Of a DNA stretch of 38,629 nucleotides, positions 2,655 through 20,610 are shown in pieces. Position 1 is the stretch's first letter, and every line of letters starts with the position of its first letter. Source of the stretch: a virus; IMG/VR virus record IMGVR_UViG_3300002138_000044, positions 1 to 38,629 of that record; one strand, written 5' to 3'. Position numbers and translations under genes: made by a program. The notes beneath the pieces were generated by a model. It worked only from the letters and a program-made list of their open reading frames with translations. It was not told where the DNA came from and searched no databases.

Positions 2655-3186
2655 TATACGTATCGTTAAAACTGGAATCAACGTATCAAAGATTCTTGAT
2701 CAACTTAAAAAATATCCAGAAGACTGGAACTCCGAATCTAAAATAGAGAGCGCTAAAAGTTGCGTTGATGTACATGGCTTTCCGCAAATAGATGTAGGTG
2801 TTCTTCAATTAGTTATAGGCGGAGTGAAAAGCATAGATGAATACGTAGGAGATACTGAAATATGTATCCCTACACCGGCATACAAAAAACATACACACAT
2901 CATCAATTTTTTAAAGCGTCATTTCAAAAAATATAATCGTTGTGGATTCTTATCTCTTCCTGTAGGAAAAGGCGTAGGAAAACATATTGACATTGGAACA
3001 TACTATCAAACAAAAGATCGATATCATCTTTCAATTCAAGGTACATACGAGTACACCGTTGGAGACGAATCTATTATAGTAAATCCTGGAACACTTTTCT
3101 GGTTTAATAATAAATTAGAACACGCTGCTCAAAATGTAGGTGATTCTACACGCATTACTTTTGTCTTTGACGTACCGCATAAATGA
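2647..3186 (+). CDS. Aspartyl/asparaginyl beta-hydroxylase-like 2OG-Fe(II) dioxygenase
   Basis: Predicted 179-aa Fe(II)/2-oxoglutarate oxygenase. I chose the GTG at 2647 because GGAGG sits 9-10 bases upstream; an ATG/TTG further upstream in this frame has no such site. It overlaps the gp43 stop by 8 bases. The metal triad candidates are H113-x-D115 (KHIDIG) and H159 (LEHAAQN), and R169 in STRITFVFDV fits the 2-oxoglutarate-binding arginine. The segment RYHLSIQG (125-132) is typical of the aspartyl beta-hydroxylase family. The substrate is unknown. Related phage enzymes may hydroxylate proteins; action on DNA or nucleotides cannot be ruled out since this phage carries DNA-modification genes. 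Confidence 0.75.
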   Translation: MHNIRIVKTGINVSKILDQLKKYPEDWNSESKIESAKSCVDVHGFPQIDVGVLQLVIGGVKSIDEYVGDTEICIPTPAYKKHTHIINFLKRHFKKYNRCGFLSLPVGKGVGKHIDIGTYYQTKDRYHLSIQGTYEYTVGDESIIVNPGTLFWFNNKLEHAAQNVGDSTRITFVFDVPHK

Positions 3187-3196
3187 AATTTTAAAT

Positions 3197-3225
3197 TGTA
3201 TTTTTAATATGAATTGTTATATAGT
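3197..3225 (+). promoter_or_regulatory. Weaker sigma70-type promoter before uvsX
   Basis: TGTATT (3197-3202), 17 bases, TATAGT (3220-3225). It keeps the spacing of the other early promoters and an AATTGT in the spacer but has one or two mismatches in each box. It lies in the 64-base gap before uvsX. Confidence 0.45.
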
Positions 3226-3250
3226 GATACTATTTACATAAGGAATATAC

Positions 3251-4327
3251 ATGAGCATACTAGATAAAATCAAAAAGAATAGCACGATTAAAGACTCTGC
3301 TATTCTATCTGAATCAAAATTCTTTACTAAGAAGGATATGATTTCAACATCAATCCCAGTCATCAATGTTGCACTTAGCGGCAGGCTTGATGGTGGCTTA
3401 ACTCCAGGCCTCACAATGTGGGCTGGGCCAAGTAAACACTTTAAAACTGCCTTCAGTTTATTGATGGCTAAATCTTACATGGACAAATATGAAGATGCTG
3501 CTTTATTGTTTTATGATTCTGAGTTTGGTACTCCTCAGTCTTATTTCGATAGTTTCGGTATTGACACAAGTCGAGTTATTCATACCCCTCTTACCGATGT
3601 GGAACAATTAAAGTTTGACATCATGCAACAACTAGCTGGCATCGAACGTGGTGATCATCTAATTATCGTCATTGATTCAATCGGCAATCTAGCTTCTAAG
3701 AAAGAAGTTGAAGATGCTCTCGATGGTAAGTCTGTTGGTGATATGACTCGTGCTAAACAGATGAAGAGTTTGTTTCGTATGGTAACACCTCACTTGAATT
3801 TAAAAGACATTCCTCTAGTAGTTGTTAATCACACCTACATGGAAATTGGTATGTTCCCCAAAGCAATTGTTGGTGGTGGAACAGGTTCGTATTATTCTGC
3901 TGATAATATATTCATCCTTGGTCGACAACAAGAAAAAGAAGGAACCGAAATTATTGGCTATAACTATATAATTAATGTGGAAAAATCACGATATGTTAAA
4001 GAAAAATCTAAAATACCTATTTCTGTATCTTTTGATGGTGGTATTAGCAAGTGGTCTGGCTTATTGGATATCGCTATCGAATCTGGGCACATCATCAAAC
4101 CCAGCAATGGTTGGTATTCGAAAGTAGATAAAGATACTGGAGAAATTGAAGAAAAGAAATATCGTATCAAAGATACTGATACTAAAGATTTCTGGATGTC
4201 AATCGTTACTTCAAAATCTTTTAATGAGTTTGTGCAAAACAAGTATGCTCTTGCGCATGGTGATATTATCCGCGATGATGAAATTATTACCGATATGGCT
4301 AAATATAAAAATGATAAGACCGCATAA
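3251..4327 (+). CDS. uvsX: RecA-like recombinase UvsX
   Basis: Strand-exchange recombinase for recombination-dependent replication and repair, 358 aa (T4 UvsX 391). The Walker A loop is the T4-type variant GPSKHFKT (59-66; T4 has GPSKSFKS), and Walker B is LIIVIDSIGNLAS near residues 136-148. VVNHTYMEIG with a downstream GGGTGSYYSADNIFIL matches the DNA-binding loop region of UvsX. An AAGG Shine-Dalgarno precedes the ATG. The order uvsX, small gene, helicase is that of T4 uvsX-40-41. Confidence 0.95.
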   Translation: MSILDKIKKNSTIKDSAILSESKFFTKKDMISTSIPVINVALSGRLDGGLTPGLTMWAGPSKHFKTAFSLLMAKSYMDKYEDAALLFYDSEFGTPQSYFDSFGIDTSRVIHTPLTDVEQLKFDIMQQLAGIERGDHLIIVIDSIGNLASKKEVEDALDGKSVGDMTRAKQMKSLFRMVTPHLNLKDIPLVVVNHTYMEIGMFPKAIVGGGTGSYYSADNIFILGRQQEKEGTEIIGYNYIINVEKSRYVKEKSKIPISVSFDGGISKWSGLLDIAIESGHIIKPSNGWYSKVDKDTGEIEEKKYRIKDTDTKDFWMSIVTSKSFNEFVQNKYALAHGDIIRDDEIITDMAKYKNDKTA

Positions 4328-4646
4328 AGTATTAGGTAAAACGACAGAGCAAGGTGAGCTTCACGCACTAACGTTAACTGAAGGACCATTTGCAGGAATT
4401 ATTTTTGCTTATAAAAACGTATCTTTTGATGAAGATGCTGTTAATGATAAATTGCGTATGGGATATGAGTACGATGTCCATAGTGTACCGTATGACAAAA
4501 ATGACTATGATGTAAAAGCTTTTGAAAAAGAACTCGGTGACTTCTTAGTAGAATTGCTTTATTATGGGCTCGAACACAATCATCTAGGATATATTAATGA
4601 CGACAAGACTCGAAAAGACGATACTATCAAACTTGATTCACAGTGA
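4311..4646 (+). CDS. Small protein between uvsX and the helicase (position of T4 gene 40)
   Basis: 111-aa protein of unknown function. The ATG at 4311 lies inside the last codons of uvsX and the gene ends 50 bases inside the helicase gene, so it is translationally nested between the two. The protein begins MIRPHKVLGKTTEQGELH, has a central beta-rich part (EGPFAGIIFAYKNVSF) and an acidic, helical C-terminus. It has the position of T4 gene 40 (head-assembly initiation), but I see no clear similarity to gp40, and no membrane segment, so I do not transfer that name. The frame extends further upstream, but those codons overlap uvsX fully and are unlikely to be used. Confidence 0.7.
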   Translation: MIRPHKVLGKTTEQGELHALTLTEGPFAGIIFAYKNVSFDEDAVNDKLRMGYEYDVHSVPYDKNDYDVKAFEKELGDFLVELLYYGLEHNHLGYINDDKTRKDDTIKLDSQ

Positions 4647-5985
4647 AGATTATTGCAGAAAAGTAGTTCCATTTCTTAAGACTGAATATTTCAGTGATAA
4701 CTTTGAAAGAATTGTAGCACAAGAACTTCTAACTTTTTTTACAGAATATAATAAACCTGCATCTTTAGAAATTCTTGCAATTCAAATTGGAAAGCGTAAA
4801 CTTCACAAAGATCAAATTGAAAGCATTGAAAAATATATCAATGATCTCGATTTTATAACAGAAAATCAAGAATGGCTATATAAAAACACTGAAGTTTTTT
4901 GTAAGAAGCAAGCAGTCTATAACGCTATTATAAACTCATTTGAAATAATTGAAGGAAAGAACGACACTCTTACTGAAGATGCTATTCCATCGCTATTGTC
5001 AGATGCACTTTCAGTGTCCTTTGACAAATCAGTAGGCCATGATTATCTTGAAGATTTTGCTGAACGCTATGAATTTTATAATCGTAAAGAAGAAAAGCTT
5101 TCGTTTGATTTAGATCTATTTAATAAGATTACAAAGGGTGGTTTATCTAGGAAAACTCTTAACGTAATTCTTGCTGGCACTGGCGTAGGTAAGTCGTTAT
5201 TCATGTGCCACGTTGCTGCATCAGTTTTATCTCAAGCTAAAAACGTATTGTATATCACGATGGAAATGGCAGAAGAACGTATTGCAGAACGTATTGATGC
5301 TAATCTTCTTAATATGACAATGGATGAATTATCCAAAGTCGATAAAGATATCTATGAAACTCGCATTGGTAAACTGATTAAGAAAACTAATGGCAAACTA
5401 ATTATTAAAGAATACCCTACAGCCTCTGCTCATGCTGGTCACTTTAGAGCGCTGCTCGAAGAACTTAAACTTAAACGCGATTTTAAACCCGATATAGTTA
5501 TTATTGACTATTTAAATATTTGTGCTTCATCGCGCATTAAGCATGGGTCTGGTGTCAATTCTTATACATACATTAAGTCTATTGCAGAAGAACTTCGAGG
5601 TCTTGGTGTAGAATATAACGTGCCAATTCTTTCTGCAACACAAACAACTCGTGGTGGGTATGATAATACAGATGTAGATATCACAGATACTTCTGAATCA
5701 TTTGGTTTACCTGCTACAGTGGATTTAATGTTTGCTTTGATTTCTACTGAAGAATTAGAAAACCTTAATCAGATTATGGTTAAACAACTTAAGAATCGGT
5801 ATAATGATATCTCTTATTATAAAAGGTTTGTTGTAGGAGTTGATCGTGCTAGAATGAAACTATATGATGTAGAAGATTCTGCTCAGAAAAATATTGCAGA
5901 TTCTGGTCAAGATGATAGTCCAGTTTTTGACAAAGGTGCTTTTGGACAAAGAATGAAACAAGCAGGCGATGGGTTCAAATTCTAG
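4597..5985 (+). CDS. 41: Replicative DNA helicase, T4 gp41 (DnaB) type
   Basis: Hexameric 5'-3' helicase of the replisome, 462 aa (T4 gp41 475). Residues 1-160 form the N-terminal helical domain and 165-440 the RecA-fold ATPase. Walker A is AGTGVGKS (193-200) and Walker B lies in DIVIIDYLNICAS. Long stretches follow T4 gp41, e.g. NVLYITMEMAEERIAERID and AESFGLPATVDLM-type sequence in the C-terminal half. The ATG at 4597 gives MTTRLEKTILSNLIHSEDY, matching the start of T4 gp41 (MVEIILSHLIFDQAYF). Confidence 0.95.
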   Translation: MTTRLEKTILSNLIHSEDYCRKVVPFLKTEYFSDNFERIVAQELLTFFTEYNKPASLEILAIQIGKRKLHKDQIESIEKYINDLDFITENQEWLYKNTEVFCKKQAVYNAIINSFEIIEGKNDTLTEDAIPSLLSDALSVSFDKSVGHDYLEDFAERYEFYNRKEEKLSFDLDLFNKITKGGLSRKTLNVILAGTGVGKSLFMCHVAASVLSQAKNVLYITMEMAEERIAERIDANLLNMTMDELSKVDKDIYETRIGKLIKKTNGKLIIKEYPTASAHAGHFRALLEELKLKRDFKPDIVIIDYLNICASSRIKHGSGVNSYTYIKSIAEELRGLGVEYNVPILSATQTTRGGYDNTDVDITDTSESFGLPATVDLMFALISTEELENLNQIMVKQLKNRYNDISYYKRFVVGVDRARMKLYDVEDSAQKNIADSGQDDSPVFDKGAFGQRMKQAGDGFKF

Positions 5986-8554: not shown

Positions 8555-9093
8555 TATATACTGCACAACAACAAAACGATAACAAGAAAAAGACTGGAAA
8601 TGCATGGGAAGAATATTACTTTTCAGTCTTTGGTGGAACTCGCAATTCTGATTGGTTTGATAGAACAGGCGACGGCGTTACTGAAGATAAAGCTATTGTA
8701 GAAGTAAAAGGACAAGTGCCTTATTACTTAAATGCATATTTGCGTAAGTTGTGTAAAGATATACCAGAAGCTGTTGAATTTGTATTTTCAGTTCCAATCA
8801 TGTCTGCTAAAGGTCATGTGTTTGAAAATCAACTTCCTAAATGTCTTAAGGCTGATGAACTTATATGGGGACATACTCCAGATCATGGTAATAACAGAAT
8901 TAGAATGTATTGTGCTACTACACGTAATCATTTTCAATATGATACAAATGATGGTAGACTGATGGCAGCATTTTATGATTATGAATTGATTTACGACAAA
9001 GAAGACAAAGATTTTTCAGATTATTTACGTAAACACTCAAATTCTGCTCGCATCGCTGGCAATAAATCACCATATTATAGAGGTTATAAATGA
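8551..9093 (+). CDS. PD-(D/E)XK nuclease-like protein, function unknown
   Basis: 180 aa. It starts with GTG at 8551, whose GTGA overlaps the previous TGA. The N-terminal part has the restriction-endonuclease-like pattern: E20/E21 in an initial helix (GNAWEEYYFSVFGG), D41 in RTGDGVTED, and E51-V-K53 in AIVEVKGQ. The rest is not recognised. It might cut DNA, for example host DNA lacking the phage modification, but that is inference. It is coupled to the Nmad1-like gene and to gene 42 by 4-base overlaps, so it is co-expressed with nucleotide-modification genes. Confidence 0.6.
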   Translation: MIYTAQQQNDNKKKTGNAWEEYYFSVFGGTRNSDWFDRTGDGVTEDKAIVEVKGQVPYYLNAYLRKLCKDIPEAVEFVFSVPIMSAKGHVFENQLPKCLKADELIWGHTPDHGNNRIRMYCATTRNHFQYDTNDGRLMAAFYDYELIYDKEDKDFSDYLRKHSNSARIAGNKSPYYRGYK

Positions 9094-9479
9094 CACAATT
9101 CACTCGCAAATCAGCAAACATCCTAATTGAAGCAGCTGAACTTCAAGAACGCAAAGGCCAAGACTATCAGAATCCTCTAAGTCGAGTACGCCAAGCAGAT
9201 CACTATCCTCGTGGTGTTTACACTATCCTTGATACTATTAACGGCAAGATGCTTCGTATGTATTCTGTATTGGAAACTATGGAAGCTGGCGGCAAAGTTA
9301 ATTTTGAATCGGTAGAAGATTCAGCTATTGATATGATCAATTATGCATCATTCCTTGTTGCATATATGCGTGGTCAAATCGATGGTCAAACTCCAGATAA
9401 AGACATCTTCAATCGTCGTCTTAATCCTGATAATCCTAAAAACACTTTTGAATTAATTCCTTCCGATTTTACAAAATGA
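9090..9479 (+). CDS. Nmad1/DUF1599-like nucleotide-modification-associated protein
   Basis: 129 aa. The sequence ERKGQDYQNPLSRVRQADHY (20-39) and DSAIDMINYASFLVAYMRG are typical of DUF1599 proteins, which are named nucleotide modification associated domain 1 because they occur with phage nucleotide-modifying enzymes. The all-helical fold recalls MazG-type pyrophosphohydrolases. It is ATGA-coupled to the dCMP hydroxymethylase gene downstream, which supports a role in handling modified or unwanted nucleotides. The exact reaction is not known. Confidence 0.7.
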   Translation: MTQFTRKSANILIEAAELQERKGQDYQNPLSRVRQADHYPRGVYTILDTINGKMLRMYSVLETMEAGGKVNFESVEDSAIDMINYASFLVAYMRGQIDGQTPDKDIFNRRLNPDNPKNTFELIPSDFTK

Positions 9480-10228
9480 ACAGACTATCTACACCAACAT
9501 GTTACGACATTCGTCAAGTATTTGCGCTACTTTATAAAGAAAACAAATTTGTAATCGACAAGTCAGGTGTAAAGACTATCGAAATTATGAATGCTAATTT
9601 CTTGGCTAATTCACCTTTAATATTTGGTGAAGTTAATGAAAATTATGTTGCACGAGAATTGATGTGGTATAAGTCACAGTCTTTAAATGTGAACGATATT
9701 CCCGGCGGCACTCCAGCAATTTGGAAACAAGTAGCCGATAAAGATGGTATGATCAATTCCAATTACGGTTGGTGTGTTTATTCAGAAGAAAACAATAATC
9801 AGTTTTATAATGTTGTAACTGAACTTGAAGATCGTCCAGATTCTCGTCGTGCTACTATGATTTACACTCGTCCTACAATGTGGGGTGATCATCTTAAAAA
9901 CGGCCGATCAGATTTTATGTGTACTAACACTGTACAATATCTTATTCGTGATGGCCGTGTACACGCTATCGTAAATATGAGAAGTAACGATGCTTGGGCT
10001 GGATATCGTAATGATTATGCTTGGCAACTTTATGTTCTAGAAGAAGTAGTTCAAACATTACAATATCGTGGCAAAAACTATAATCGTGGTGAAATCTTTT
10101 GGAATGTTGGTTCTCTTCATGTATATGAACGACAGTTTTATTTAGTAGATCACTTTATCGAGACTGGTGCTTTAACAATTACTAAAGAAAAATATGAAAA
10201 GCAATATATCAAAAAATCTATTAGCTAA
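9476..10228 (+). CDS. 42: dCMP hydroxymethylase, T4 gp42 type
   Basis: 250 aa, T4 gp42 246. It converts dCMP to 5-hydroxymethyl-dCMP using methylene-tetrahydrofolate, the first step toward hydroxymethylcytosine DNA. The protein follows gp42 throughout: VIDKSGVKTIEI, WYKSQSLNVNDIPG, DFMCTNTVQYLIRD and GSLHVYERQFYLVDH. The nucleophile is C149. D180 in YRNDYAWQ replaces the Asn that gives thymidylate synthase its dUMP specificity, so this is the dCMP enzyme and not ThyA. ATGA overlap with the upstream gene. ThyX at 25440 supplies dTMP separately. Confidence 0.95.
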   Translation: MNRLSTPTCYDIRQVFALLYKENKFVIDKSGVKTIEIMNANFLANSPLIFGEVNENYVARELMWYKSQSLNVNDIPGGTPAIWKQVADKDGMINSNYGWCVYSEENNNQFYNVVTELEDRPDSRRATMIYTRPTMWGDHLKNGRSDFMCTNTVQYLIRDGRVHAIVNMRSNDAWAGYRNDYAWQLYVLEEVVQTLQYRGKNYNRGEIFWNVGSLHVYERQFYLVDHFIETGALTITKEKYEKQYIKKSIS

Positions 10229-10664
10229 GTGGGATCAAAGGTATATCGAGCTTGCAGCGCAAATTTCTACGTGGAGTAAAGATCCAAGTAGAAAGATTGG
10301 CGCTGTTGCTGTAGGTGTTAAAGGACAAATATTGTCACAAGGATATAACGGATTCCCTCGAGGGATTCTTGATTTACCAGAACGTTATTTAGATAGACAA
10401 ATTAAATATAAGCATGTAGTACATGCTGAAATGAATGTAATTTATAATGCATCATTGAATGGAGTTTCTCTTGATGGTTCTTCACTTTATGTTTATGGAC
10501 TTCCTATTTGTAATGAATGCGCAAAAGGTATTATCCAAGTTGGCATAAAGCGTGTTGTCATATATACTGATGAAGAAGTACCAGAAATTTGGACAGAATC
10601 TTTTGCACTAACACATTCAATGTTTAAAGAAGCAGAAGTAAAGTGCAACTGGATTCAACCTTAA
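10194..10664 (+). CDS. cd: dCMP deaminase
   Basis: 156-aa zinc-dependent deoxycytidylate deaminase making dUMP for dTMP synthesis. The catalytic zinc site is VVHAEMN (His-Ala-Glu, near residues 80-86) with PICNECAK (Cys-x-x-Cys). DPSRKIGAVAV and SQGYNGFPRGI are family signatures. The start at 10194 lies inside gene 42 (35-base overlap), typical of packed phage genes. Together with gene 42 it drains dCMP from the normal pool. Confidence 0.92.
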   Translation: MKSNISKNLLAKWDQRYIELAAQISTWSKDPSRKIGAVAVGVKGQILSQGYNGFPRGILDLPERYLDRQIKYKHVVHAEMNVIYNASLNGVSLDGSSLYVYGLPICNECAKGIIQVGIKRVVIYTDEEVPEIWTESFALTHSMFKEAEVKCNWIQP

Positions 10665-10676
10665 GGAATATTTACA

Positions 10677-11189
10677 ATGAGTTTATTATCACACGCTGAA
10701 GAAGAATTAAACAGAATTGGTATGGGCCCAGATTGCGACCCAGAAGATATGAATGGAATGATGCGAAAGCATATTCTTCATATGATGCAAGAGTTTGCAG
10801 ACGAAGGACACAGCGGTTTTTCTGCTTCGTATGCAATCAGTATTCTAACTAAACTAATGAGCTTTAAGCCATTATCACCACTCACAGGTGAAGATGATGA
10901 ATGGACAAATGTTTCTCATTATGGTAACGGCGATCCTCATTATCAAAATAAGCGACTTTCTTCAGTGTTTAAAGAAGAAGATGGTTCTTGTTACAATATT
11001 GATGGTAAAGTATTTTGGGAATGGTGCAAAGATGAAGCCGGCGATGCAGTTAAGTCTCATTATAGTAATCATGAATCAAGAATACCAGTGACTTTTCCCT
11101 ATACCGTACCAGATAAACCAATATATGAATATCGGCAATCTGAGGCTGAACCAAAATCGCTACCTCAAAATGAAGAAGGATTCCTTTAA
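10677..11189 (+). CDS. Conserved phage protein of unknown function
   Basis: 170 aa. AAGGA precedes the ATG. An N-terminal helical part (SHAEEELNRIGMGPDCDPED) is followed by PLTGEDDEW and a segment YQNKRLSSVFKEEDGSCYNI, features I associate with a widespread but uncharacterised phage protein family. No enzyme motif is visible. A 17-base piece of its 5' coding region (10691-10707) is repeated just after its own stop (11194-11210). Confidence 0.75.
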   Translation: MSLLSHAEEELNRIGMGPDCDPEDMNGMMRKHILHMMQEFADEGHSGFSASYAISILTKLMSFKPLSPLTGEDDEWTNVSHYGNGDPHYQNKRLSSVFKEEDGSCYNIDGKVFWEWCKDEAGDAVKSHYSNHESRIPVTFPYTVPDKPIYEYRQSEAEPKSLPQNEEGFL

Positions 11190-11212
11190 TGAAACACGCT
11201 GAAGAAGAATAA
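11189..11212 (+). pseudogene. Seven-codon remnant (MKHAEEE) between two genes
   Basis: ATG-AAA-CAC-GCT-GAA-GAA-GAA-TAA overlaps the previous stop by one base. It contains an exact 17-base copy (11194-11210) of bases 10691-10707 near the start of the upstream gene. It looks like the beginning of a lost gene copy or a recombination scar at the edge of the glycosyltransferase/methyltransferase pair. It may also act as a coupling leader for the gene at 11214. Confidence 0.45.
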
Positions 11213-11213
11213 A

Positions 11214-12035
11214 ATGATTCAACACATCGTAATCCCCACGCTTGGTCGTATGGACAAGCAAGTTACGTATAATAGCTTTCCACAGAAATATAAAGACATC
11301 ACAACTTTTGTAGTACAGGAGCATGAATATGCCGAAATGGACAAACGCTATCTAGGAAAAGTTCTCAGTCTACCAGCTGAGATTAATCGAATTGCTCCAA
11401 CTCGGGAATGGATTCACAAACATTTTAGAAATGATCGTCATTTTGTGTTTGATGATGATCTTGAGTTTGTCGTAAAAGAGCCTAATCTGGGTGAAGGCAC
11501 CAAGTGGCTGAGCCGTAAGTTTACTGACCATGACTTCGATGATGCATTCGATCTATGCGATGCGTGGATGGACGATGGTATCATCTACGGTGGATTCTTG
11601 CCTGCATGGATTATTCCCGACGTTAAGCAATGGCCAGTACGTGAATGCCAACGCATAATGACTAACGTATTCTACGATGGTGCTAAAGTTCCAGATGGTA
11701 TTGAATGGAATCGTGTTGCTGCAGCTGAAGACTTTGACGTCAACTTGCAACTACTGACTCGCGGATTTAAGAACAGAATTAGTGCTAAATACATGGTAAC
11801 CTGTTCTGAGACAAACGCTGAAGGTGGTTGTTCTACATGGCGCACGTTACAAGTTCATAATGATGCTCAAAAACAACTAGCTGAACTGTGGCCTGCCTTC
11901 ATTAAGCTAAGCGAGAAGACGGTTACTAACGGACCCTGGAAAGGGCAAGTTAAATATACGACGACGATTCAACATAAGAAGGCTTATATGTCGTCTCAAA
12001 AACCTACTCAAACTCTGGAGTCTTTCTTTGATTAA
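11214..12035 (+). CDS. GT-A fold glycosyltransferase, probably DNA-base modifying (TAGT-like)
   Basis: 273 aa. It begins MIQHIVIPTLGRMDKQVTYN, a nucleotide-sugar-binding strand, and has FVFDDDLEFVV with D80-D81-D82 as the metal site. A second acidic motif, AAEDFDVNLQLL (E172, D173), fits the GT-A acceptor region, and EGGCSTWRTLQVHND follows. The layout resembles the TET/JBP-associated glycosyltransferases (GREB1-like) that glucosylate hydroxymethylated bases. I infer that it glycosylates hydroxymethylcytosine in DNA because gene 42 lies nearby. T4 alpha/beta-glucosyltransferases are GT-B and unrelated. It overlaps the methyltransferase start by 8 bases. Base use is less AT-rich than the neighbours, suggesting later acquisition. 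Confidence 0.65.
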   Translation: MIQHIVIPTLGRMDKQVTYNSFPQKYKDITTFVVQEHEYAEMDKRYLGKVLSLPAEINRIAPTREWIHKHFRNDRHFVFDDDLEFVVKEPNLGEGTKWLSRKFTDHDFDDAFDLCDAWMDDGIIYGGFLPAWIIPDVKQWPVRECQRIMTNVFYDGAKVPDGIEWNRVAAAEDFDVNLQLLTRGFKNRISAKYMVTCSETNAEGGCSTWRTLQVHNDAQKQLAELWPAFIKLSEKTVTNGPWKGQVKYTTTIQHKKAYMSSQKPTQTLESFFD

Positions 12036-13212
12036 ACATGCAGCAATTGTTCCACTGGTCGGAGGTCTTCCTCTCGGCCAGGAAAAGGCATTCGGTAGTC
12101 GTCCTGACTACCTTTTGTCGTATTCGCCATTCTCCAGTAACGACTCACACTTAGTAAATTATTACAAAGACGTACCATACATTCTGCTTGATCAAGCCGG
12201 CCGCCATCCGCATTACGTAGATGTTGTTGGTGCTACATGTCCTTGTGCAGGTCTTTCTTCTCTATCGACATCAGCTAACTCTGACGCTGCTGTAAACGAT
12301 TGGATGACTACCACTGCCAAGTACGTACTAGAAGAAATGAAGCCTCAAGTATTTTGGGGTGAAAATGCTCCAAGACTTGCTGGTGAAATGGGTAAACCAG
12401 TTATTGCTAAATTAAATAAAATAGCAAAAGATAACGGCTATACAATATCACTTTATAGAACTAAGTCATTGCTGCATGGATTGAGTCAAGTGCGTGAACG
12501 CTCTTTCTACTTCTTTTGGAAGGGAAGTCAAGTCCCACTATTGAACTACTTTGATCGTCCAAACAAACGAATTGAAGATGCTATTCGTGAAGTGCCAAAG
12601 AATCTTACTCAACACGAAGTAACTAATAAGAAGATTCCATCTAAAGACGATCCGTATTATCGTTACGTGCTAGAAGAGTTAGAAGGTGGTATTACCCATC
12701 AAGAGTTCGTAAAGAGACTTACCAAGTCATGCGATGCTATGGATTGGATTGAGTCTAAAACTAATTATCTAGAAGTTAAGAAGTGGATGGAAGCATATGA
12801 TTATCCAAAGGTTGCTGCAAAGTGTCAAGCAATTGCTGAGAAGCTGGCTGATGGTGGTAATATTATGCGTAGGTCTTCTGTTATCCCTGCAAATTACATT
12901 GGTGCTTTTGTTGGACATCTACCAACCAATCTCACGCACCCCGACGAAGACCGTTACATCACTTATCGTGAGGGTATGAGTTTGATGGGTCTTCCATATG
13001 ACTTTGAGCTACTCAACCCAAGTAGAAACCTCAATCATATCTGCCAGAATGTTCCAGTAACTACTGCTACTGACATGGCAATGGAGATTAAAGCTGTTTT
13101 AGAAGGTAAAAGAGACATGATGAAGGGGACTTTAATGTATCAATTCAACCCTCAAAAGACTTTTGAAATAAGAGATGCAGATCCTCCCAATAGCTTACAA
13201 GCCTTCTTATGA
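12028..13212 (+). CDS. C5-cytosine DNA methyltransferase-like protein
   Basis: 394 aa, started by TTG at 12028 with GGAG 7 bases upstream; no ATG fits. Recognisable motifs: IV with the nucleophile in TCPCAGLSSLS (P72, C73), VI as WGENAP (E112, N113), VIII as QVRERSFYF (154-162), IX-like TYREGMSLMGLPYDF, and X-like ICQNVPVTTATDM. Motif I (IVPLVGGLPLGQEKAFG) is unusual: the Phe-x-Gly core and the acidic residue after it are not obvious. It is translated from within the glycosyltransferase gene, so the two should act together. If the genome already carries hydroxymethylcytosine, ordinary C5 methylation would be blocked, so the true target is uncertain. Confidence 0.75.
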   Translation: MIKHAAIVPLVGGLPLGQEKAFGSRPDYLLSYSPFSSNDSHLVNYYKDVPYILLDQAGRHPHYVDVVGATCPCAGLSSLSTSANSDAAVNDWMTTTAKYVLEEMKPQVFWGENAPRLAGEMGKPVIAKLNKIAKDNGYTISLYRTKSLLHGLSQVRERSFYFFWKGSQVPLLNYFDRPNKRIEDAIREVPKNLTQHEVTNKKIPSKDDPYYRYVLEELEGGITHQEFVKRLTKSCDAMDWIESKTNYLEVKKWMEAYDYPKVAAKCQAIAEKLADGGNIMRRSSVIPANYIGAFVGHLPTNLTHPDEDRYITYREGMSLMGLPYDFELLNPSRNLNHICQNVPVTTATDMAMEIKAVLEGKRDMMKGTLMYQFNPQKTFEIRDADPPNSLQAFL

Positions 13213-18229: not shown

Positions 18230-18673
18230 ATGGATGAATTAATACTATCAATAAAAAAGTGTTTAGCTAATACTTTCGTATTTTATTTTAAAACACACGG
18301 CTTTCATTGGAATGTTGAAGGTATTAATTTTCCAACTTATCATGCTTTCTTCGAAGCTTTATACCAAGATCTTTATGGTGCAATAGATCCTCTTGCTGAA
18401 GAGATTCGAGCTTTAGATACATATGCTCCAAGTGGACTTAACGAATTATATAGTAATGCTTCTATTAGCGATAGCGATATTAAAGGCGATAATATAAAAG
18501 ATATGTTAGAAGCAGCTTTAAAAGATAACACGATAGTTGTTGGTTGTTTAACAACATCTCTTACGCTTGCTACTCGAGAAAATAAACAAGGGTTAGTAAA
18601 TTTCTTAGCCGATAGAATTGATGCTCATAAAAAGCATGAGTGGATGATTCGTTCTTGCATAAAGGGAGCATAA
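18230..18673 (+). CDS. dps: Dps-like miniferritin
   Basis: 147 aa. Dps proteins form 12-subunit shells that oxidise and store iron and protect DNA from peroxide. All ferroxidase ligands are present with exact family spacing: H26 (with W27 in GFHWNVEG), H38, D53 and E57 (DPLAEEIRAL), matching E. coli Dps H51, H63, D78, E82. There is no N-terminal lysine tail for DNA binding. It lies 9 bases after the cytidylyltransferase-like gene with AGAG as ribosome site, and its stop is 2 bases before the next ATG, inside the capsid-related block. Confidence 0.9.
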   Translation: MDELILSIKKCLANTFVFYFKTHGFHWNVEGINFPTYHAFFEALYQDLYGAIDPLAEEIRALDTYAPSGLNELYSNASISDSDIKGDNIKDMLEAALKDNTIVVGCLTTSLTLATRENKQGLVNFLADRIDAHKKHEWMIRSCIKGA

Positions 18674-18675
18674 AT

Positions 18676-20610
18676 ATGGCAGATACACGAGAAGTACAAG
18701 ATACATCTGATTATAAATTAGATAAGCAGGGTAAAAAAATTAAAGCTCATCGAATCATTTTTTCTAAAGGTGAAGATGATGGCAAGGGGAGAGTAACAGA
18801 AAATATGAAAAAATCATTCAGTTCTTTTATAGAACAACACACTGAATTGCTGGAAGCTAAATGCTCAGAATGTGGTGAAAAAATGCACAATGGAGATTGC
18901 GAAATGCAAGAAAGTCGCGGCCATAGCATTATAGCTACCAAATTAAAGCAAATAGATGCTCGGAAGACTAGAGATGCTGATGCACTTAAGCGTCACAATG
19001 AAATGCTTTCCAATATTGCAACTAGCAGTGCATCACCTGAACATAAAAAGGCTGCGATTGATGCCTTGAATAAAAAAGGTGTGACTGAAGCAAAAGCTGA
19101 TCCTCTTGGTTCTTGGATATCACATAAAGAATTTACCAATCCAAAAATATTCAAAACGCGCGAAGGTGCTAAAGCACATGCTGCAAAGACTGGTGGCACA
19201 GTTAATAGTAGCGAAGGTTATCACAGATTGAAGAAAGACCAAATTAAGGAAGACAACATGCAAAACCAACAAAGACTTAAAGATGCTTTAGCTCGGCACT
19301 CCGATAAACTCACTGCAGCTAATAATTCCGGCGATAACATTGCAAGTCAAGTTCATCAAAAATACATTAATAAAATTAAAAATAAAATGAAAGAAGAAGT
19401 TGAAAGTGTAGATGAAGAACAGATCGACGAATTGTCTGTTAATAAAATGTTAAAATATACTGATGCTGCTAATAAAAATAGAGAAGTATTGAATAGGAAA
19501 TGGGATACAGGAACTGCTACCGAACGAGAAAAAAATAAAGTCCTCAGCCACGAAAAAGGTGAAGACCATGCTGCTACTCGTGTCAAAGCAAAAACTGGTA
19601 AGTATCCTGAACAAATTGGCAAATTATCAAGAATGAAATATGCAATAACAAAAGAAGGTGTAGAGGAAGAAGTCGACCAGATCGACGAAAAGCATTTAGT
19701 TAATGTGACTGTGTCTGATCCAAATCACACAATGGTTTCTAAGCGTAAAGAAACAACACAAAGACGTGCTTCAGTAACAGCAGAAAATCGTGAACATGCT
19801 GTTGATACTGCAATTAAGCATTATGAGAAACAAGGCTATAAAGTTCATGACCATCAATATGTTGGAATGAAAGAAGAAGCTCTTAAAGCAGATAGAGGAT
19901 ATAAGAAAACTGTATCGGAAGCTGCTCAAAACGTTGCAGCGCATGTTAAGACTAATAAATATTCATGGGGAACAATGAAGACTGTTCATCAGGGATCTTC
20001 TTTTTCCATTCCTCTTCATCCAGAACATCACGAGGCAATTGCTAAATTGAAAGATCAACAAGAGCACAAATTCAAAGACGAAACAGGTCATCATTGGACA
20101 GCTAAACGTCAAGGAGATGATGTTCATTTCCAAGGCGCAAATGGTGGTAACTCTACTAAAGTTCCACATAAAGCTATTGCAGAATCTAAAGAAGATGTTC
20201 CATTTGATGGACCATATAAATCAGTTTTCAAGAAACCTAATAATCCAAATCGCACTGGTATGGATGCTGCTCGAGCTTTAGCTCAAAAAGGAGCAGAAAG
20301 AGCAAAGAAAGAAAAAATGAAAGAAGAAAAGAAAACATTTAAAGATTTTCTGAATGACTTAAATGAAATTAAAATGTCAGATTTGCCAAAGCGTACAGTA
20401 AAAGGTAACAGCTATGGCGCTCAATATCATGATCCAGAAGGTGACGATGATGCTGACAAGAAAAAACCACAACCAAACACAGCTGAAAAGCGTGGTCGTG
20501 GAAGACCTGCTGGATCGAAATCAGGAGCAAACTTTGGCGCAGCTTCTAAAAACAAATCTGGTGTAGAATATACTGGGTATAAATTACACTTGCCAAACTC
20601 TAACAGATAA
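18676..20610 (+). CDS. Modular internal/core protein with protease-like sites and an AT-hook
   Basis: 644 aa; start ATG 18676 chosen because AAGGGAG precedes it. It is low-complexity, Lys/Glu/His-rich and built from short modules. Inside are capsid-targeting-like segments: MKKSFSSFIEQ (44-54) and KKTFKDFLNDLNE (552-564). Many x-E junctions resemble gp21 cleavage sites (e.g. LLEA, IDEL, IAES). The acidic module EEQIDELS recurs as EEVDQIDEK and as EEVEEIDELS in the protein at 22131. A possible zinc knuckle is C63-x-x-C66 with C75. RGRGRP (606-611) near the C-terminus is a canonical AT-hook for AT-rich DNA. I infer a prohead-core or internal head protein cut during maturation. No enzyme domain is seen. 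Confidence 0.65.
   Translation: MADTREVQDTSDYKLDKQGKKIKAHRIIFSKGEDDGKGRVTENMKKSFSSFIEQHTELLEAKCSECGEKMHNGDCEMQESRGHSIIATKLKQIDARKTRDADALKRHNEMLSNIATSSASPEHKKAAIDALNKKGVTEAKADPLGSWISHKEFTNPKIFKTREGAKAHAAKTGGTVNSSEGYHRLKKDQIKEDNMQNQQRLKDALARHSDKLTAANNSGDNIASQVHQKYINKIKNKMKEEVESVDEEQIDELSVNKMLKYTDAANKNREVLNRKWDTGTATEREKNKVLSHEKGEDHAATRVKAKTGKYPEQIGKLSRMKYAITKEGVEEEVDQIDEKHLVNVTVSDPNHTMVSKRKETTQRRASVTAENREHAVDTAIKHYEKQGYKVHDHQYVGMKEEALKADRGYKKTVSEAAQNVAAHVKTNKYSWGTMKTVHQGSSFSIPLHPEHHEAIAKLKDQQEHKFKDETGHHWTAKRQGDDVHFQGANGGNSTKVPHKAIAESKEDVPFDGPYKSVFKKPNNPNRTGMDAARALAQKGAERAKKEKMKEEKKTFKDFLNDLNEIKMSDLPKRTVKGNSYGAQYHDPEGDDDADKKKPQPNTAEKRGRGRPAGSKSGANFGAASKNKSGVEYTGYKLHLPNSNR

Follow-up and report, generated by a model that had tools for sequence, protein, structure and literature searches.

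The window, by which we mean the whole stretch of DNA analyzed, is a 38.6 kb fragment of a T4-like environmental phage (IMGVR_UViG_3300002138_000044). On its plus strand lie a gp43-like family B DNA polymerase gene (129–2654; PHROG 262) and, between positions 9,090 and 13,212, the run of plus-strand genes considered here. An initial annotation named a T4-type dCMP hydroxymethylase, a GT-A glycosyltransferase, and an overlapping C5-methyltransferase-like gene in this region. An ORF check confirms that all three genes are real and lie where they had been called, and the profiles PF00303, PF20691, and PF00145, respectively, bear out their identities. The interval 9476–13212 also holds, between the hydroxymethylase and glycosyltransferase genes, a dCMP deaminase gene (10194–10664; PF00383, 68 bits; PHROG 174) and a Tad3-like gene of the type I Thoeris inhibitor family (10677–11189; PF25185, 136 bits). 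Among relatives, only L033 possesses a Tad3-like gene at this position; the gene is an insertion in the cassette, outside its conserved parts. Preceding the hydroxymethylase gene is a gene for a MazG-like NTP pyrophosphohydrolase (9090–9479), assigned from PHROG 1485/18404, "hydrolase", and from synteny: it adjoins the hydroxymethylase gene in many relatives. Its product is a candidate dCTPase.

The hydroxymethylase (9476–10228; PHROG 160, E 9e-54) is of the T4 gp42 type. Specifically, it is 57% identical to T4 gp42, it matches the T4 dCMP hydroxymethylase structure with E 1e-88, and it has the TS fold. Alignment shows that the equivalents of E60, C148, and D179 are retained, including the catalytic Cys148 and the dCMP-specific Asp179 that replaces the Asn of TS. 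A reading as an RB69-type 5-hydroxy-dCMP synthase (ORF048c) was ruled out, identity to that enzyme being 25% versus 57% to T4 gp42.

The glycosyltransferase (11214–12035) belongs to the TAGT group, as had been proposed: it scores 68.8 bits against the Pfam profile PF20691 (cut-off 27.5) and matches PHROG 842, "beta-glucosyl-HMC-alpha-glucosyltransferase", with E 1e-41. Its DxD motif, DDD at residues 80–82 (D80–D82), is invariant. The structure prediction suggested earlier yields a model of only fair quality (pLDDT 78) that matches GT-A structures with Z 10–11, and a PDB sequence search returned no match. PF20691 encompasses the T2/T6 enzyme that produces gentiobiosyl-hydroxymethylcytosine (gentiobiosyl-hmC), and solitary TAGT genes are reported in 288 of 753 phage genomes (PMC13216743).

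Overlapping the TAGT gene by 8 nt is the C5-methyltransferase-like (MTase) gene (12028–13212). It begins with TTG at 12028, a start supported by the relatives' MTases, whose initial Met falls in that alignment column. The protein scores 55 bits against PF00145 (cut-off 22) and matches C5-MTase folds with Z 23, while PADLOC labels it only as a generic type II MTase. The catalytic Cys, the ENV Glu, and both QxRxR Arg residues (C73, E112, R156, and R158) are present in 84 of 84 MTase sequences. The canonical SAM motif I FxGxGG and the motif X GN are absent, and nearly invariant PLxGG and CQN stand in their places. In all 84 sequences Gln (Q340 here) replaces the motif X Asn, an unusual residue for what would be the donor-reading position. 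We take the protein to be a diverged C5-cytosine methyltransferase with its catalytic residues retained and with predicted activity.

Upstream sequence of 6.5 kb or more is available for 48 MTase loci, and 46 of these carry a hydroxymethylase gene. The two exceptions, S-TIM54 and phage G gp319, have TS-family genes with the dCMP-type Asp (judged by alignment for S-TIM54 and by eye for gp319), so that a dCMP-type hydroxymethylase accompanies the MTase at every testable locus (48/48). In the reverse direction, an MTase gene is found at 34 of 42 hydroxymethylase loci. MTase copies also occur in prokaryote genome contigs; because the same phage genes flank them at the loci inspected, we treat these contigs as phage.

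The gene directly before the MTase, by comparison across 74 loci, is AGT in 35, TAGT in 27, a member of another 370-aa family in 3, and something else in 9; AGT and TAGT never occur together. The slot AGTs are genuine, with PF11440 scores of up to 318 bits, and those of the window's sister phages are 41% identical to T4 AGT. When glycosyltransferase type is mapped onto the MTase tree, at least 10 changes are needed, and the TAGT-bearing window and L002 nest inside mostly AGT-linked MTases. The glycosyltransferase gene has thus been swapped repeatedly between related phages while the MTase stayed put. Given this swapping, and given that AGT and TAGT are never found together, the primary hmC glycosyltransferase of this phage is most likely its TAGT.

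A further feature unites the cassette's last two products. Of the window's 44 ORFs, exactly three have a clamp-binding-like peptide at the C-terminus: the DNA polymerase (SSLEDFFGA, our in-genome reference), TAGT (TLESFFD), and MTase (SLQAFL). Strict matches to the peptide number 10 among 485 ORFs of the window and related contigs, versus about 0.1 expected from shuffles, and none of 277 hydroxymethylase, deaminase, MazG, and UvsX sequences has such a tail. By the loose pattern, 35 of 43 TAGTs of the cassette type carry one, whereas the T6-type TAGT of Sf22 does not. The tail is likewise missing from TAGT at five TAGT–MTase loci and from the distant MTases of S-TIM54, phage G, and XG4. T4 gp43, gp55, and gp33 bear interchangeable hydrophobic-acidic C-terminal clamp epitopes (PMC2988020), which the peptides here resemble in sequence, and gp45 co-purifies with T4 AGT (PMC13216743). 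The restriction of the tail to the polymerase, TAGT, and MTase suggests that the two enzymes acting on DNA probably travel on the gp45 clamp.

From the observed identities and order of the genes, the conserved catalytic residues, the swaps at the slot, the co-occurrence, and the terminal peptide, we infer the chemistry, the sugar, primary rather than secondary glycosylation, clamp binding, and MTase activity. The arrangement that we consider likely is a replication-coupled hmC glycosylation cassette. At the nucleotide stage, the hydroxymethylase would produce hm-dCMP while the dCMP deaminase and the MazG-like pyrophosphatase reduce the dCMP/dCTP pool, and hmC would be incorporated into DNA. 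At the DNA stage, TAGT would act as the sole and primary hmC glycosyltransferase, taking the role of AGT in the sister phages and probably decorating the hydroxyl of hmC with just one sugar, which is most likely glucose. The MTase-like protein would be a conserved third component on the same nascent DNA, and both it and TAGT would be tethered to the gp45-type sliding clamp by their polymerase-like C-terminal peptides. Cytosine in this phage's DNA is probably replaced by glycosylated hmC, in keeping with the unusual glycosylated cytosine of the initial annotation, which is likely.

One set of searches weighs against the cassette model as regards hm-dCTP synthesis and the completeness of replacement. 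No T4-type dNMP kinase (gp1) was found in 10 records, including contigs of 167 and 158 kb, with T4 as the positive control, and a search of relatives for a tmk-like kinase gave no convincing match. T4-type gp56 is absent from the window and the large related contigs searched, and among relatives only XG4 has a gp56 dCTPase.

Could TAGT instead add a second sugar? In T2/T6, the PF20691 enzyme adds a second glucose (PMC13216743), and a comparable TAGT might here extend a glucose attached by an AGT or BGT whose gene lies beyond the window, with the MTase an unrelated anti-restriction orphan. Both Straboviridae loci that we found with TAGT also carry BGT, and in a fragment of this size the first transferase could lie elsewhere. 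Nonetheless, TAGT occupies the very slot of AGT, the MTase is conserved along with the cassette, and the Sf22 enzyme differs in its tail. The search for T4 agt and bgt advised earlier recovered AGT in the sister phages' slot; among TAGT-type records, AGT appeared in none of 17 (up to 114 kb) and BGT in none of those tested. We therefore judge a second-sugar role unlikely and favor TAGT as the primary enzyme.

What the MTase does within the cassette admits several readings. The least novel is sequence-specific C5-methylation of cytosines that escape replacement. A bolder variant, which we consider unlikely, makes it a dedicated enzyme that travels with the clamp and has hmC, not cytosine, as its substrate. 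For example, Cys attack at C6 could activate the 5-hydroxymethyl so that a group is coupled or removed; alternatively, the protein could present flipped hmC to the glycosyltransferase. The altered motif I and the invariant Gln would then be adaptations. Such coupling or removal by ordinary C5-MTases is known only in vitro. We rejected, as very improbable, a Cx-SAM-dependent carboxymethyltransferase of the CmoX type generating a second kind of hypermodified cytosine. CmoX (8yf3), which originates from a cyanophage (PMC12783734), is the sole PDB sequence match for the single MTase protein (E 0.056) and its joint best fold match (Z 23). However, CmoX requires Arg350 at the position of HhaI Asn304, the column at which the present sequences have Gln, and an unsystematic look nearby revealed no CmoA or AMP-forming ligase.

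Scarcely credible is the TET-type route envisaged initially, in which the MTase would make 5mC for TET/JBP oxidation and TAGT glycosylation alongside the hydroxymethylase route, giving two routes to one base: PF20691 takes its name from association with TET genes (not a rule, as T2/T6 lack TET) and the MTase adjoins TAGT, but the TET/JBP search found no TET_JBP in 30 distinct records (fragments, some large, including relatives of 158–180 kb), every testable MTase locus has its dCMP-type hydroxymethylase, and the MTase neighbors AGT no less often than TAGT, and so is very unlikely to be a TET partner.

The novelty comes from the relatives, with their slot swapping and conserved MTase partner. 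These features suggest that many T4-like phages from the environment share a general three-part hmC-glycosylation module, composed of a hydroxymethylase, an interchangeable glycosyltransferase, and a conserved C5-MTase-like partner, with XG4, S-TIM54, and phage G fitting it more loosely. One could learn from the natural swaps which glycosyltransferases serve as primary hmC enzymes, and the swaps bear on the role of the "solitary" TAGTs (PMC13216743). The common clamp-binding-like tail provides a testable hypothesis for coupling phage DNA modification to replication.

Parts of this module have counterparts elsewhere. In MetaGPA cassettes (PMC8670742), a hydroxymethylase, dCMP deaminase, and MazG-like protein likewise supply hmC to a decorating enzyme, but that enzyme is a carbamoyltransferase, hmC being carbamoylated instead of glycosylated, and the part of that report on which we draw describes no C5-MTase partner. 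DNMT1 is a C5-MTase with a motif that binds the sliding clamp PCNA (PMC9690074); it is eukaryotic and maintains 5mC at CpG, so the resemblance is one of working principle alone. In the Tequatrovirus T2/T6 gp42–TAGT–uvsX locus, genes of the same families occur, a dCMP hydroxymethylase and then TAGT, near uvsX and the gp41 helicase. There, gp42 overlaps the TAGT gene, which overturns the premise that the hydroxymethylase works only with GT-B enzymes. That TAGT, however, extends AGT-made alpha-glucosyl-hmC, lacks the clamp-like tail, and has no C5-MTase downstream. In T4 itself, AGT is not adjacent to gp42, there is no C5-MTase within the region examined, and AGT has no C-terminal LExFF-type tail; yet T4 AGT binds gp45 (PMC13216743), and AGT (PF11440) fills, in the window's sister phages, the same slot that TAGT fills here.

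The window carries a DNA-modification cassette whose open reading frames are confirmed by an ORF check. Profile matches (Pfam/PHROG) specify, in order, a MazG-like hydrolase (9090-9479), a T4 gp42-type dCMP hydroxymethylase (9476-10228; PF00303, PHROG 160), a dCMP deaminase (10194-10664), a Tad3-like protein (10677-11189), a TAGT-group glycosyltransferase (11214-12035; PF20691, 68.8 bits; PHROG 842), and a diverged C5-cytosine methyltransferase, C5-MTase (12028-13212; PF00145, 55 bits), whose gene begins with TTG and shares 8 nt with the end of the TAGT gene. These matches agree with the initial annotation on the hydroxymethylase, the TAGT assignment, and the C5-MTase-like gene. The hydroxymethylase matches the T4 enzyme in the PDB (E 1e-88), shares 57% identity with T4 gp42 versus 25% with RB69 5-hydroxy-dCMP synthase, and in alignment keeps equivalents of the catalytic Cys148, the dCMP-specific Asp179, and Glu60. 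The Tad3 family inhibits type I Thoeris; here a member lies inside a modification cassette, and another occupies the same place, between deaminase and alpha-glucosyltransferase (AGT), in the related locus L033. Elsewhere in the window, a 38.6 kb piece of a phage represented only by a contig, a 656-aa ORF (18640-20610) has zero PHROG matches.

The initial annotation held that hydroxymethylases partner only with GT-B enzymes, and TAGTs only with a C5-MTase plus TET. Neither rule holds. In Sf22, a Tequatrovirus, gp42 and a TAGT gene share 4 nt and uvsX comes next, and solitary TAGTs, potentially novel transferases, occur in 288 of 753 phage genomes (PMC13216743). PF20691 is the T2/T6 enzyme that adds a second glucose, and it has a GT-A fold (PMC13216743). 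The suggested search for a TET/JBP dioxygenase yielded no TET_JBP match in 30 distinct related records, 158 to 180 kb contigs or genomes among these; that for T4 agt and bgt yielded neither AGT nor beta-glucosyltransferase (BGT) in the TAGT-type records examined.

TAGT searches retrieved about 50 viral loci, and the C5-MTase search gave 254 matches, 80 of them kept. The commonest order in relatives is MazG-like, hydroxymethylase, dCMP deaminase, glycosyltransferase, C5-MTase. The slot directly before the C5-MTase was read in 74 loci that have 3.5 kb or more of upstream sequence: AGT fills it in 35, TAGT in 27, another family of 370 aa in 3, and other genes in the remaining 9. AGT and TAGT never occur together. 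AGT is securely identified (PF11440, with scores of up to 318 bits; PHROG 2888; 41% identity to T4 AGT). On a quick C5-MTase tree (55 non-redundant rows, SH-aLRT support only), the glycosyltransferase label must change at least 10 times, and the starred branches alone force 6 changes for AGT and 4 for TAGT. The C5-MTases of the window and of the related locus L002, both TAGT-linked, nest inside a supported, mostly AGT-linked clade. Because the label changes repeatedly and the TAGT-type records examined lack AGT and BGT, gene order suggests that the window TAGT is most likely a stand-in for AGT, and so the primary hydroxymethylcytosine glycosyltransferase.

Some relatives also have sugar-nucleotide genes (nucleotide-sugar epimerase, UDP-glucose dehydrogenase) at this position. 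A 365-370 aa protein fills it in three related loci (L055:1679-2791, matching PHROG 14998 of unknown function; L061:6907-8004; L067:6920-8014) and is a candidate new DNA glycosyltransferase family. Four more (L107:4783-7322, L133:45-3768, L135:1593-5361, L137:7718-10004) hold an unassigned pair, a PHROG 13881-like protein and another, mostly with LESFF/LEEFF-type tails; in several, a gene resembling, by eye, myo-inositol-1-phosphate synthase lies upstream. These loci possibly make a different, novel cytosine decoration. A 118-162 aa protein weakly resembling the uracil-DNA-glycosylase superfamily (E 0.02) recurs near the glycosyltransferase (L002:7624-8004, L068:6287-6775, and 23 further loci).

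The C5-MTase is a conserved partner in the cassette. A T4-like hydroxymethylase is present in 46 of the 48 C5-MTase loci whose upstream sequence extends 6.5 kb or more, and in 13 of 15 after collapsing C5-MTases at 70% identity; the exceptions both times are S-TIM54, whose ThyA carries the dCMP-type Asp in alignment, and Bacillus phage G, where gp319 reads by eye PYD in place of the dUMP-type PFN and has two alpha-glucosyltransferases and a dCMP deaminase nearby. Reciprocally, the C5-MTase accompanies the hydroxymethylase in 34 of the 42 loci that have 6 kb or more of sequence downstream; two of the other eight carry TAGT plus BGT, one being identical to a Salmonella phage record. The samples were limited by similarity and to at most 80 loci per search, so these counts are not unbiased frequencies. 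No paper describing the hydroxymethylase–glycosyltransferase–C5-MTase association surfaced in the literature searched, most subscription journals lying outside its scope. A search of relatives gave no T4-type dNMP kinase, with the T4 control positive. The phage G genes (JN638751.1 219303-234494; L028, L132) span ~15 kb: gp301 (C5-MTase), gp306 and gp313 (alpha-glucosyltransferases), gp317 (deaminase), and gp319 (thymidylate synthase with dCMP-type Asp). In the unannotated record of Pseudoalteromonas phage XG4 (L025), two weakly GT-B-like genes (3019-5344) lie directly 5' of the C5-MTase; close by are a gp42-like hydroxymethylase and a homologue of gp56.

The predicted C5-MTase structure (pLDDT 88.9) has the C5-MTase fold (Z 23). 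The catalytic Cys, both QxRxR Arg residues, and the Glu and Asn of the ENV motif are invariant among the 84 distinct sequences compared. Motif I reads PLxGG in place of the M.HhaI FxGxGG, and motif X has an invariant Gln at the HhaI N304 position, with which an ungapped M.HaeIII alignment agrees. M.HhaI and E. coli thymidylate synthase served as reference sequences in the alignments. In CmoX, Arg350 sits at the N304 position and reads the carboxymethyl group of Cx-SAM, an arrangement likened to engineered M.MpeI N374K (PMC12783734). Because its N304-position residue is Gln, the C5-MTase is, judging by this site, neither a textbook SAM methylase nor CmoX, an identity we rejected.

A strict C-terminal motif, [ST][LI]-[DEQAS]-x-F-[FLIMV], occurs in exactly 3 of the 44 window ORFs: DNA polymerase (SSLEDFFGA), TAGT (TLESFFD), and C5-MTase (SLQAFL). 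Large contigs of relatives again give polymerase, C5-MTase, and, where present, TAGT. Strict matches number 10 in 485 ORFs versus about 0.1 expected from shuffled C-termini, and a looser pattern marks 35 of 43 TAGTs, 99 of 112 C5-MTases, 19 of 62 AGTs, and none of 277 hydroxymethylase, deaminase, MazG-like, and UvsX sequences; with patterns defined after the tails were seen, and related sequences not independent, these counts are descriptive more than a test. T4 gp43, gp55, and gp33 each end in an epitope that binds the sliding clamp gp45, and these C-termini can replace one another (PMC2988020); T4 AGT co-purifies with gp45 whereas BGT does not (PMC13216743). TAGT and C5-MTase, both DNA-acting enzymes of the cassette, probably ride the sliding clamp. 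The Sf22 TAGT, in contrast to that of the window, has no clamp-like tail. A likeness in working principle exists in DNMT1, a DNA-acting enzyme that uses the sliding clamp PCNA (PMC9690074).
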